A DNA stretch of 64,000 nt from Gemmatimonadaceae bacterium (lineage in GTDB: Bacteria > Gemmatimonadota > Gemmatimonadetes > Gemmatimonadales > Gemmatimonadaceae): NCBI GenBank assembly GCA_014379355.1, contig JACMLX010000183.1, forward strand, positions 1-64,000, in the 5' to 3' direction. The position numbers and the translations under genes are program-made. Of the stretch, positions 51,755 to 63,849 are shown in pieces (positions within the stretch are counted from its first letter, which is position 1; each line of letters starts with the position of its first letter). Below the pieces are notes generated by a model. It was not told the DNA's origin. It made no database searches and worked only from the letters and a program-made list of their open reading frames with translations.

Positions 51755-52519
51755 TCAGCGCATGCGCGTCCAGACCAGCAGCGAGCAATCCTCACGATAG
51801 CCGGTGTACTGCGCCGGCGTGTTCGCCATATAAAGCTCGAATGCACCGATATCCTGCGCCGGGATCGTCGCGAGCGCGAAGCGATAGTCGGCGTTCGGGC
51901 TGGTCACATGCTGCCCATCGATCCAGAGCCCGAGACGAAGGCATCGCGGCACGTTGATATCGTTGCCGGCACCGCCGCCAGTGCGCACACCGGGCAACCC
52001 GGCGAACCAGTCATCGATCGTGTTCGGCATGCGGCTGGCGAAGTTCGAGATATCGCGGAACTGTCCGCCACCGCGCTTCTTGCGTTGCTCGAACGCCTTG
52101 CGCCACGGTTCGGCCGGCAGATCCTCGCGAACTTCCACTTCGGCGAGCTTCTGTGAGGCGTCACCGAGTTCGACGCGCACGGCAAAGCCGGCTGCCCGTC
52201 CGACCTTGAATCGTGCCTGTCGCTGCTCGAGACCAATCTTGCGGACCGCGATGTCGATGACGGAGTCCGCCTTGATGGAAATGCGCGCGAAGCCGGACGA
52301 ATCGGTGCGCACGGAGTCGCGTGTGAGGAAGAACGACACCTGTGCGTCGGCAATCGGCTTGCCGGCCTTGTCCACCACTTCGATACGAATGTCGCGCGCG
52401 GTGACTTGCGCCTTTGCCGCGCTGATGGCCAGGAACGGAAGGAGGAGCACGATGAGGTACGTCAACCGTGCATGTGTCGCACGAAACATTGGCAGACCGG
52501 GAAGAAGGACCTGTGTCAT
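51755..52519 (-). CDS. secreted carboxypeptidase-regulatory/plug-like protein, copy B
   Basis: A 254-residue exported protein. After a signal peptide (YLIVLLLPFLAISAAKAQ) comes a carboxypeptidase-regulatory-like beta-sandwich (IRIEVVDKAGKPIADAQVSFFL...DSSGFARISI), then a plug-like segment (FASRMPNTIDDWFAGLPGVRTGG, CLRLGLWIDGQHVT, IPAQDIGAFELYM) like that at the start of TonB-dependent receptors. The chain stops where the beta-barrel would begin. It ends EDCSLLVWTRMR; the upstream paralogue ends EDCSLLVWTRSR. ATG 52519 overlaps the upstream stop as ATGA; ATG 52489 is an alternative. Function unknown. Confidence 0.75.
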   Translation of the reverse strand: MTQVLLPGLPMFRATHARLTYLIVLLLPFLAISAAKAQVTARDIRIEVVDKAGKPIADAQVSFFLTRDSVRTDSSGFARISIKADSVIDIAVRKIGLEQRQARFKVGRAAGFAVRVELGDASQKLAEVEVREDLPAEPWRKAFEQRKKRGGGQFRDISNFASRMPNTIDDWFAGLPGVRTGGGAGNDINVPRCLRLGLWIDGQHVTSPNADYRFALATIPAQDIGAFELYMANTPAQYTGYREDCSLLVWTRMR

Positions 52520-53289
52520 CGGGATCGCGTCCATACGAGCAGGGAGCAATCCTCGAGATTGGGATCACTGAACTGCGATTGCTGCTGGGCCATGCGGAAG
52601 AGTTCGAGCGCGGCGATGTCGGTGGCCGTGAGCTGCTGGAGGGCCAGGCTGGCGGGCAGGCCCGGCCCCGTGACATGCATGCCATCGATCCAGACGCCAA
52701 GACGCGGGCAACGCATGATGCGCAAACCACGGGAGGTCATCACCACGCCGGGCATGCTGTTGAACCAGTCGTCGAGCGTCAACGGTACGCGCCCGGCAAA
52801 GTAGCTGCGGTCGCGAAACGAGCCACTGCTCCTCTTGCGCCGTTCCTCGAAGCCTCGCCGCCACGGTTCGCCGGGATACTCCGCCGTGACGGATACTTCG
52901 GGCAGCCGCACTCCGAGCTCCCCCAGCGTGACGCGCACCACGAATGCAGGCGCGGCGCCGATCGGAAACCGTGCGGCGCGTGGCTCGAAACCGATCTTCC
53001 GGACGCTGATCGTGAGGGTGCTTTCGGCCTCGATCGTCGCGAGCGCGATGCCCGACGAATCAGTGATGGCCGAATCCGCCCGCGGCAGAAATTCGACACG
53101 GGCGTCGGAGAGCATGCGCCCGGAACGATCGCGCACCTCGACGCGGACGGCCCGCGGCGATGGCTGTGCCGCGATCACACCCGCGCTGGACACGAGACAC
53201 AGCAGCAGCGCCGCGCCCCAGTGGCAGGCGCGGCGAACCGGTCCGACGTCGCGCAGGTTCGGAAGCGATGAAGCCATGATGGGAAACAT
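52516..53289 (-). CDS. secreted carboxypeptidase-regulatory/plug-like protein, copy A
   Basis: A 257-residue paralogue of the next gene with the same order: signal peptide (WGAALLLCLVSSAGVIAAQ), a regulatory-like beta-sandwich (VRVEVRDRSGRMLSDARVEFLP...DSSGIALATI), the RKIGFEPRAARF segment shared with copy B (RKIGLEQRQARF), and a plug-like half (RVPLTLDDWFNSMPGV, CPRLGVWIDGMHVTG, LTATDIAALELFRM). No barrel follows. The two conserved Cys of the plug-like half (MRCPR and LEDCS) are in both copies and could form a disulfide. Both are probably co-translated. Confidence 0.75.
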   Translation of the reverse strand: MFPIMASSLPNLRDVGPVRRACHWGAALLLCLVSSAGVIAAQPSPRAVRVEVRDRSGRMLSDARVEFLPRADSAITDSSGIALATIEAESTLTISVRKIGFEPRAARFPIGAAPAFVVRVTLGELGVRLPEVSVTAEYPGEPWRRGFEERRKRSSGSFRDRSYFAGRVPLTLDDWFNSMPGVVMTSRGLRIMRCPRLGVWIDGMHVTGPGLPASLALQQLTATDIAALELFRMAQQQSQFSDPNLEDCSLLVWTRSR

Positions 53290-60009: not shown

Positions 60010-60371
60010 CAGGCGACCTTGTCCGCGCTCGTCGTGGTGCCGTTGGTGGCGAAGATCTTGGCGACGCGACCCCGCTCTACGATCAAGCGTGCGTCGCCGC
60101 TCTTGATCGTGACTTCATCATCGGCACTCGGTGTCGCGGCGGCCTTGATGTGCTGGACTTCGCCGATGAGGCCACCGGCGGTGACGATGCGATCGCCCTT
60201 CTTGAGCTGCAGAATCGCGGATTCGTGCTTCTTGCGCTGCTGCTGCTGCGGGCGAATGAGCAGGAAATAGAAGATCGCGAAGATGCCGCCGTACATGAGC
60301 AGCGGCGCCACCATGGCGTTGCCTGCGGGAAACTGCAGGAGGGCGAGCGAGGCGAGCGGCATGGAAGTCAT
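60009..60371 (-). CDS. yajC: preprotein translocase subunit YajC
   Basis: A 120-residue auxiliary component of the Sec translocon. It has one transmembrane helix (about 20-42, MVAPLLMYGGIFAIFYFLLIRPQ...) followed by the hallmark RPQQQQRKKHES and the soluble KKGDRIVTAGGLIGEV domain. ATG 60371 forms an ATGA overlap with the tgt stop and is preferred over the ATG at 60362. It precedes def in the operon, a common bacterial order after tgt. Confidence 0.93.
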   Translation of the reverse strand: MTSMPLASLALLQFPAGNAMVAPLLMYGGIFAIFYFLLIRPQQQQRKKHESAILQLKKGDRIVTAGGLIGEVQHIKAAATPSADDEVTIKSGDARLIVERGRVAKIFATNGTTTSADKVA

Positions 60372-61585
60372 TCTGGACTCTTGGCGTGATAGCGCGCGAG
60401 CCAGTTCAGGCTCCACGCATCGAAGGTTCCGTCGCGGAGCGCCGTACGCGCGTCACGCATCAGGGTGATGAGGAAAGATACGTTGTGCAGGGAGAGGAGC
60501 CGCAGGCCGAGCATTTCCTCGCTCACGAAGAGATGCCGGAGGTAGGCGCGGTCGTACCGGGTGCAGCAGGGGCAGGGGCAGCCGTCGACGAGTGGACGGC
60601 GGTCGGTGCGGAAGCTGCTCTTGCGGACCTGCACCTTCCCGTCGTGGGTGAAACCGGTGCCGTTCCGCCCCATGCGCGTCGGGGCGACGCAGTCGAAGAG
60701 GTCGACCCCGCGCCGCACCGCCTCGACCAGATCATCGGGGAATCCGACGCCCATCATGTAGCGGGGGACGGTGCGCGGGATGACCGGGTCGACGACGTCG
60801 AGGGTGGCGTACATGTCGGGCTTGGATTCGCCGACGGAGAGGCCACCGATGGCGATGCCGTGCCAGTCGCCGCGATCGAGGATGCCGCGGGCGGAGGCGA
60901 CGCGGAGGGCGGGGTGGATGCCACCCTGGATGATGGGGAAGAGGGTCTGGCGCGGGGGAATGATGTCGGTGGCGGGATCGTGCGTTGCCAGGGGCGGGGC
61001 GCCGGGCGGAACTTCGAACTGGGGGGGGGCCCCCCGACCTTCACGCGTGATCCGGTCGAACTCGACCCGACACCGATCCAGCCACCGCAGGCTCCGCTCC
61101 ATCGCCGCCTGGCTCGCTGAAAACTCCGCCTGCCCGGCGATGAGCTCATCGAGCTGCATGATCACGTCCGCGCCGATGTTCCGCTCGATCCGCATCACGC
61201 TTTCCGGCGTGTAATCATGCTTCGAGCCATCGATGTGGCTCTGAAAGATCACGCCCTCCTCGCTCACCTTGCGCAGGCTCGAGAGTGAAAACACCTGGAA
61301 TCCGCCGGAGTCCGTGAGCATCGGCCCGTTCCAGCGCGTGAACGCGTGCAGTCCGCCAAGTGCGCGGACCATCATGTCACCGGGGCGGAGGTAGAGGTGA
61401 TACGCGTTCGAGAGGATCATCTGTCCGCCCGCCGCTGCCACCTCCTCGACGCTGAGTCCCTTGATCGTGCCGTGGGTGCCGACGGGCATGAAGGCCGGCG
61501 TTTCCACGGTGCCGTGCGGCGTGGTGAACCAGCCGAGTCGCGCGCTGTCGGCGTCGTGGGAGGTGCGGAACGAGAAGTCGGACAT
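60368..61585 (-). CDS. tgt: tRNA-guanine transglycosylase with internal insertion
   Basis: Tgt replaces guanine-34 with preQ1 in queuosine biosynthesis. The 405-residue protein has GTHGTIKGL, TDSGGFQVFSL (Asp92), the catalytic Asp298 in VDLFDCVAPTR, and zinc ligands C336-P-C338-x2-C341. ATG 61585 begins right at the domain; the frame continues upstream without homology. Between residues 178 and 212 it has about 30 residues (GRGAPPQFEVPPGAPPLATH...) not found in typical bacterial Tgt, which place a G9C6 tract in the coding sequence. First gene of the housekeeping operon. Confidence 0.93.
   Translation of the reverse strand: MSDFSFRTSHDADSARLGWFTTPHGTVETPAFMPVGTHGTIKGLSVEEVAAAGGQMILSNAYHLYLRPGDMMVRALGGLHAFTRWNGPMLTDSGGFQVFSLSSLRKVSEEGVIFQSHIDGSKHDYTPESVMRIERNIGADVIMQLDELIAGQAEFSASQAAMERSLRWLDRCRVEFDRITREGRGAPPQFEVPPGAPPLATHDPATDIIPPRQTLFPIIQGGIHPALRVASARGILDRGDWHGIAIGGLSVGESKPDMYATLDVVDPVIPRTVPRYMMGVGFPDDLVEAVRRGVDLFDCVAPTRMGRNGTGFTHDGKVQVRKSSFRTDRRPLVDGCPCPCCTRYDRAYLRHLFVSEEMLGLRLLSLHNVSFLITLMRDARTALRDGTFDAWSLNWLARYHAKSPE
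61021..61035. repeat. G9C6 homopolymer tract inside tgt
   Basis: Nine G followed directly by six C (forward strand) encode Gly-Arg-Gly-Ala-Pro-Pro-Gln in the atypical insertion of tgt. Such runs are prone to slippage, and any one-base change would truncate Tgt. Confidence 0.9.
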
Positions 61586-61778: not shown

Positions 61779-62795
61779 ATGCTGCCGATGCTCTTGTCCT
61801 CGATCGTCGTTCCTGCGGTGCTTGCCGCGGCCAGCGGCACGATCGTCGCGTCGAACATGGAGGCGCATTCCGTCAGCATCGTGGATGTCGCGAGCGGCAC
61901 GACGGTCGCCACGATCCCGACCGGTGACGGTCCGCACGAGGTCGCGATTTCACACGATGGTGCCAGCGCGGTCGTGTCCATCTACGGTACACGCGCAGCG
62001 GCCGGCAGCGCCTTGCTCGTGATCAACCTGCGTGAGCCGACTGCGACTCCTCGCACGATCGAGCTGGGCGCAGGCAATCAACGGCCGCACGGGCTCGCAT
62101 TCCTGCCGGGTGATCAACGGTTGCTCGTGACCGGGGAACGCGCGCAGCGAGTGCTGATCGTCGACGTAGCGAGCGGCGCCATCGATTCGTCGATGAGTAC
62201 GAAGCAGGCCACGACACACATGGTCGCCACGTCGCGCGACGGCATGTCGGCGTTCACCACGAACCTGGCGGCGATGAGCGTCAGTGCGATCGACGTTCCG
62301 TCTCGCACGGTACGCGCGACGTATCCGGTGGGAGCCCGCATCGAGGGATTGGCCGTCACACCGGATTCGCGCGAGGTGTGGGTCGGCGGCAACGAGTCGC
62401 ACACCGTGTATGTGCTGGACGGAGCGACGGGCAGGGTGATCACGACGATCGAGGGGTTCGGCATGCCGTATCGCATCGGCATCACGCCGGATGCGAAGAC
62501 CGCCATCGTGAGTGACCCGGGCGGCGAGAAGATTCACATCGTCGATGTGCCGACGCACACCGTACGACATGTGATCGATGTTCCCGCGATCTCGCCGTCC
62601 GAGGGCGCCACGGCGGTGCCTGCGTCACCACAGGGTGTCACGATCGCTCGCGACGGTCGCACCGCGTTCGTGACTCTGAAGGCGGTCGGCCGCGTCGCCG
62701 TGGTCGACATCGAGACCGGCAGCATCCGCACCACGCTACGCGTCGGCGCAGGCTCCGACGGCGTCGGCTACTCGCCACTCGTGCTGGTGAAGTGA
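61779..62795 (+). CDS. secreted YncE-like beta-propeller protein
   Basis: A 338-residue exported protein: signal peptide MLPMLLSSIVVPAVLAAASG, then about seven repeats of a YVTN-type beta-propeller (VSIVDVASGTTVATIPTGDGPHEVAISHDGA, VLIVDVASGAI, VSAIDVPSRTVRA, VYVLDGATGRVITTIEG, IHIVDVPTHTVRHVI, VAVVDIETGSIRTTL). Propellers of this kind bind other proteins or ligands; no enzymatic motif is visible. GGAGG 8 bases before ATG 61779 decides the start over ATG 61737. Divergent from tgt across a 193-bp gap. Confidence 0.85.
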   Translation: MLPMLLSSIVVPAVLAAASGTIVASNMEAHSVSIVDVASGTTVATIPTGDGPHEVAISHDGASAVVSIYGTRAAAGSALLVINLREPTATPRTIELGAGNQRPHGLAFLPGDQRLLVTGERAQRVLIVDVASGAIDSSMSTKQATTHMVATSRDGMSAFTTNLAAMSVSAIDVPSRTVRATYPVGARIEGLAVTPDSREVWVGGNESHTVYVLDGATGRVITTIEGFGMPYRIGITPDAKTAIVSDPGGEKIHIVDVPTHTVRHVIDVPAISPSEGATAVPASPQGVTIARDGRTAFVTLKAVGRVAVVDIETGSIRTTLRVGAGSDGVGYSPLVLVK

Positions 62796-62865: not shown

Positions 62866-63312
62866 TCAGGAAATCACCATGCAGGCATAGCGGCAGCCTC
62901 CCTTGCTGCCCGGCACGCACCTCGATCCCGCCTCGAGAAAGCAGATGAGGTCGCCCATGACCACTACAGGCACGCAGACGCAGGGGCCGCTCGGCGAGCC
63001 GCGCTGTTGAAGGCTCACCGATTCCAACCGTTCCGCTTCGGTGACCGGACGACTCTCCAGGAAGGCCAGGTCGGTGCGACCGGTGCGCAGCTGCCACGCC
63101 TTGACGTCGGCCTTGAGTGCCTCCAGCCTCCGCGCATGAGCAGGCGTCGTGCTACCAGTGGCGAGCACACTTGCCTTGAGCTCCTGCGCCCGACGCACCA
63201 GTACCGAACGTTCGGCGTCGGCACTCGCCGGCGCGGCGATACGATCGGCGCAACCCGCCATGACTGTTACCATCGCCGATGCCACTACGACCATCATTCG
63301 CGAGCGTGTCAT
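62866..63312 (-). CDS. six-cysteine lipoprotein, copy 2
   Basis: A 148-residue lipoprotein of unknown function. The signal peptide MTRSRMMVVVASAMVTVMAGC has a lipobox with Cys21. Residues about 30-85 form a likely helical hairpin ending KAWQLRTGRTDLAFLE. The C-terminal 38 residues hold six Cys in the pattern C-x1-C-x10-C-x7-C-x7-C-x3-C, with ICFLEAG around the third. Downstream of copy 1 by 45 bases on the same strand. Whether the cysteines bind a metal or form disulfides cannot be told. Confidence 0.72.
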   Translation of the reverse strand: MTRSRMMVVVASAMVTVMAGCADRIAAPASADAERSVLVRRAQELKASVLATGSTTPAHARRLEALKADVKAWQLRTGRTDLAFLESRPVTEAERLESVSLQQRGSPSGPCVCVPVVVMGDLICFLEAGSRCVPGSKGGCRYACMVIS

Positions 63313-63357
63313 TGATTGAGTCCTCTCTGATACGTGACGGTGATGCTGGGCAGCGGG

Positions 63358-63849
63358 TCAGCCGCGCCTGATGGGTGGGTTGCCCGGGCTCACCGTGATG
63401 CAGACGTAGACGCAGGTGTGCAGCGTCAGGCCGCGAAGCACGTCGCACTCGTCGCCGTCGACCAGGAAACAGATTCGGTTTCCACTGGTCGTGACCAGTT
63501 GGCAGGGTGTGCATGGAGCTGGGCCGGACGGCACCACGGCCACGGCGGCGGAAAGACCGTGCGCTGGTGCGGTCGCCGCGCCGGCCATGCGTGTCGTGGA
63601 CACGGCGATGTCGTCATGGCCAGTTCGGGCGTTCCAATCGCGAATTTCGGCGGTGAGCTGGCGGAGAGCGGCGCGGGTCTCCGGTGAGAGACTCTTCGTT
63701 TCGGCGATACCGCGCTGCAGCTCCATCGCGCGCGCCTGCAGCGCGTGCATTTCAGCCGTCTCGGTCTGCGGGGACGACGCCAACTCCGTGCATGCTGCTG
63801 CGCCAACGGCCAGCGTGCTGACCAGCGCGCCGATCAGTGCCCACTTCAT
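63358..63849 (-). CDS. six-cysteine lipoprotein, copy 1
   Basis: A 163-residue lipoprotein related to the gene downstream. Lipobox GAAAC gives Cys20. A helical hairpin follows (residues about 37-85), ending RDWNARTGHDDIAVS, equivalent to the KAWQLRTGRTDLAF segment of copy 2. The C-terminal domain has C-x2-C-x10-C-x7-C-x10-C-x3-C with RICFLVDG around the third cysteine. GAGGAG lies just upstream of ATG 63849, which decides this start over the longer frame from 63954. No family is recognised. Confidence 0.75.
   Translation of the reverse strand: MKWALIGALVSTLAVGAAACTELASSPQTETAEMHALQARAMELQRGIAETKSLSPETRAALRQLTAEIRDWNARTGHDDIAVSTTRMAGAATAPAHGLSAAVAVVPSGPAPCTPCQLVTTSGNRICFLVDGDECDVLRGLTLHTCVYVCITVSPGNPPIRRG

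Follow-up and report, generated by a model that had tools for sequence, protein, structure and literature searches.

Predicted lipoproteins with a helical hairpin and a six-cysteine module form a small, rare family shared by Gemmatimonadaceae and one other family of the order

The stretch of DNA analysed here (the window) comprises positions 1 to 64,000 of contig JACMLX010000183.1 from a Gemmatimonadaceae bacterium (assembly GCA_014379355.1) and carries, close to its end, two adjacent genes on the minus strand: gene A (62866–63312), encoding a six-cysteine lipoprotein of 148 amino acids, and, at a distance of 45 bp, gene B (63358–63849), encoding a protein of 163 amino acids. The original prediction had described the pair as neighbouring lipoproteins of common design, and both open reading frames were recovered at this position and on this strand. 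Purine-rich sequences resembling a Shine–Dalgarno element precede A (agagagga) and B (gaggagcagg), and such an element lies ahead of the start codon in all seven members of the family described below, most of which also display an elevated third-position GC content; sigma-70-like promoters were looked for and none was found. Homologues of A occur in four genomes. The alignment of A with B spans most of both lengths at 32% identity (E = 5e-16), which at the sequence level identifies the two as paralogues and rules out a chance resemblance.

Both proteins begin with a signal peptide and a lipobox, as judged by eye, which ends at Cys21 in A (VMAG-C; 63250–63312, minus strand) and at Cys20 in B, where it is weaker (AAA-C; 63790–63849, minus strand). 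The lipobox cysteine is invariant in the seven members, as it is in bacterial lipoproteins, the substrates of signal peptidase II, and the canonical leucine at position −3 is present in five of them (L-[AP]-[AG]-C), the corresponding sequences of A and B being MAGC and AAAC. With an N-terminal signal and a lipobox cysteine, the features by which a bacterial lipoprotein is recognized, A and B are probably membrane-anchored. No family member has an aspartate at position +2. The lipoprotein class is defined by its anchor alone, whereas the combination of hairpin and six-cysteine module found here matches no library family searched.

In the AlphaFold2 models, which were computed from shallow alignments of three sequences drawn from the window and from L022, A (mean pLDDT of 72) displays a helical hairpin composed of helices 29–52 and 57–77, with a pLDDT of about 90 in both, which ends in WQLRTGRTDLA and is followed by a strand at residues 82–89; hairpin and strand together occupy 63046–63228 (minus strand). 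The model of B is similar but poorer, module included, and places the equivalent hairpin, ending in WNARTGHDDIA, at 63622–63777 (minus strand). Outside the module, the lipobox cysteine, Ala33, Leu38, Arg41, Leu45, Leu63, Trp73 and Asp81 (A numbering) are invariant in the seven members. A poorly conserved and often glycine-rich linker connects the hairpin to the C-terminal module, for which the model of A predicts three short β-strands, with pLDDT values of 79–88 in parts and of 61 around the fourth cysteine. Structure prediction, proposed as a check of the original prediction, thus yielded a confident hairpin and a three-stranded module of moderate confidence.

The module extends from Cys111 to Cys144 in A (62881–62982, minus strand) and from Cys113 to Cys150 in B (63400–63513, minus strand), with spacings of C-x1-C-x10-C-x7-C-x7-C-x3-C and C-x2-C-x10-C-x7-C-x10-C-x3-C, respectively, and the motif ICFL at the third module cysteine of both proteins. 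Both spacings and the motif had been predicted and were reproduced exactly; none of 200,000 shuffled mature sequences of A reproduced its spacing, and the same result was obtained for B. Each protein contains exactly seven cysteines: that of the lipobox and the six of the module. All seven members fit the form C-x(1,3)-C-x(10,12)-C-F-[LI]-x(4,5)-C-x(6,12)-C-x-Y-x-C, in which all six cysteines are kept. Conservation extends beyond these mainly to one phenylalanine, one tyrosine and a small number of further positions, a pattern of conservation as expected for a disulfide scaffold with variable loops; no conserved histidine was found in the module among the seven members.

The original prediction had further held that identity outside the cysteines is low and that selection acts on their spacing. 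The second part gains from the five further relatives, which keep the frame of the module, but neither part describes the hairpin well: A and B align over most of their length, and among the seven members the mean pairwise identity of the hairpin (37%) equals that of the module (36%, or 26% when the shared cysteines are left aside) and exceeds that of the linker (20%). On these values the hairpin is not free to drift and is conserved as well as the module.

The family as known consists of A, B and five relatives, all from draft genomes. A third copy, unlinked to A and B, is present in the same genome (C11:4233–4694), so that the term `pair', while correct for the locus, undersells the family, whose other members are single or tandem. 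Genome G093 contains a tandem pair and G376 a single gene, and one copy, in the Gemmatimonadaceae MAG ES-bin-29, evidently G447, was among the matches listed in a scan of genome contigs with short exact peptide patterns of A, a type of search beyond which remote members may exist elsewhere. Carriers amount to four of the 288 genomes of the order that were searched, and no certain member was found outside it in samples of 395 genomes of the phylum and 394 of the class. The in-depth searches covered the phylum, and the weak candidates inspected individually were those named below, the remaining weak matches having E values near 0.001–0.01. Hairpin and module always occur together in certain members, as assessed by searches with the module only (the order and 346 genomes of the phylum) and with the hairpin only (99 relatives). 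By these counts the family is small and rare, and its carriers belong to Gemmatimonadaceae and to one other family of the order. Several candidates were rejected: the N-terminus of a coiled-coil protein with a signal peptide and no cysteine module (G324/L028), a match in a short frame that overlaps a different gene and is devoid of the six-cysteine pattern (G319/L032), a shadow frame of an aminotransferase-like gene (G193/L112) and three weak matches at which there was no member reading frame (G054/L010, G062/L012 and G250/L034).

The tandem copies of G093 are 65% identical, and their dN of 0.22 against a dS of 0.61 argues for purifying selection on the family genes; dS values of the remaining member pairs are near saturation and were left out. 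In a tree of the seven sequences A and B are not sisters, although the support of the separating branches is modest (0.72–0.88), and for this reason they do not appear to be the product of a recent duplication. The G093 pair, unlike the pair in the window, is a recent duplication.

In the two other genomes compared from this genus, tgt comes directly after queA, the intervals between them being about 340 and 250 bp. The gap in the genome of the window, between tgt (60368–61585, minus strand) and queA (64063–65115, just past the window end), measures 2,477 bp and is occupied by the lipoprotein pair and, convergent with A, a gene for a YVTN-type β-propeller (61779–62795, plus strand), which is of interest here as context only. 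A propeller gene 69% identical to it is found in genome G023, far from its queA. The simplest reading is that the pair and the propeller gene were gained between queA and tgt in this lineage; loss in both sister genomes could also account for the arrangement. Repeats in the gap are weak and imperfect, with no clear signature of a mobile element. The neighbouring genes are unrelated between member loci and differ at every one of them, which suggests that the protein acts without a fixed genetic partner. At the locus of the third copy, a Kelch-like propeller lipoprotein is encoded upstream, and just downstream lies a possible very short lipoprotein of about 55 amino acids (L008, 3962–4130, minus strand) with the lipobox LTGC and no cysteine module.

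The original prediction knew of no family with this pattern, and the database comparisons bear it out. Profiles of Pfam, NCBIfam, PHROGs and PADLOC gave only chance-level matches, each involving one or two members, with E values no better than 0.0075; PDB chains, including a profile search of PDB sequences, gave no convincing match, tblastn with A against plasmids and phages gave none, and no relative was found in viral contigs. Foldseek searches of the PDB with A and with B, and of viral structures with A, returned nothing with an E value below 0.1, and no description of the family was found in the literature. A well defined architecture that is unrecorded in the libraries searched is therefore supported at the sequence level. 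The module resembles knottin-like, EGF-like and Kazal domains in having six cysteines in about 35–40 residues and few other residues kept, and its predicted short β-strands recall small disulfide-rich extracellular domains; it differs from them in that neither Pfam nor the PDB-sequence profile search recovered it as such a domain.

Of the two possibilities raised in the original prediction, metal binding and disulfide bonding, the second is better supported, and three disulfides are the most likely state of the module: the number of conserved cysteines is even, the module lacks a conserved histidine, the protein is predicted to be exported as a lipoprotein and the host has a VKOR/DsbA-type system. 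The host genome has one VKOR match and several DSBA-family matches over the cut-off; matches to both, adjoining on one contig, are also found in G093 and in G376, while G447, which is 74% complete, has DSBA matches only. In M. tuberculosis, likewise a VKOR/DsbA organism, numerous exported proteins have an even cysteine count, and this has been taken to indicate disulfides (PMC12421883). Were the six cysteines instead to bind zinc, copper or an iron–sulfur centre, the protein could sense or buffer metal in the envelope or carry electrons there. The module does open with CxC or CxxC and close with CxYxC, spacings of the kind found in thiolate sites, and the hairpin, on its own, gave weak fold matches (E above 5) to the periplasmic metal sensor CnrX, which has a helical hairpin of similar length. 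CnrX is not known to contain a six-cysteine module, however; a match to its fold over the whole domain was not obtained, and no cnr-type gene was recognized around the members in the lists of open reading frames. With no conserved acidic ligand in the module either, no metal-resistance gene recognized beside any member in the same lists and oxidation proteins present in the host, metal binding is improbable.

Since a fixed frame of cysteine, phenylalanine and tyrosine carries variable loops, a tip that would bind a partner is, on the conservation pattern, the most likely reading of the module. The full proposal, to which we give an even chance of being right, is that A and B are stalks anchored in the outer membrane, each with a binding tip that is locked by disulfides and variable in its loops. 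After export the proteins would be cleaved and would receive a lipid on the N-terminal cysteine, as the lipobox suggests, and, with no aspartate at +2, would be destined for the outer membrane if the Escherichia coli rule holds in this phylum. The predicted hairpin would serve as a short stalk, the C-terminal module would fold as a small three-stranded unit with three disulfides formed by the VKOR/DsbA-type pathway of the host, and the loops of the tip would bind an envelope or extracellular partner, in which duplicated copies might conceivably diverge. Structural envelope lipoproteins with no specific ligand, in which the module just stabilizes the C-terminus, would fit the lack of a recognizable enzyme or transport context and of a fold match, but the rare and patchy distribution is better suited to an accessory trait than to a structural need, which makes this alternative rather unlikely. 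That same patchiness, together with fast divergence, varying copy number and a poorly conserved, often glycine-rich linker, could also point to a secreted peptide, for which the hairpin would be the carrier and cleavage of the linker would free a disulfide-rich toxin or signal; yet all members retain the lipobox and the hairpin, which is their best-conserved part, there is no conserved cleavage motif, and no dedicated transporter, protease or immunity gene was recognized nearby in the lists of open reading frames, so that this possibility appears highly improbable. As for the displayed binding tip, it would be a bold and quite improbable extension to regard the module as a new six-cysteine fold on the outer membrane, borne by sporadically acquired and duplicated lipoproteins whose loops are selected for a specific partner, such as a molecule of a phage, predator or competitor.

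The family belongs to an ordinary kind of object, the small lipoproteins; its architecture is well defined and unrecorded, and its occurrence is rare and patchy. Small orphan families are common across many phyla and the result is for this reason modest by itself; it adds an unrecorded lipoprotein family with a clear six-cysteine signature to a poorly studied phylum, offers annotators a pattern with which to find further members, and would matter more if the fold of the module were new or if the module were a specific binding tip. Elsewhere in the window, at about 51755–53289 (L007, 1756–3290), lie two other adjacent exported paralogues of about 260 amino acids each, which have in common an N-terminal repeat (IRIEVVDKAGKPIADAQVSFF and VRVEVRDRSGRMLSDARVEFL) resembling a carboxypeptidase-regulatory-like domain.
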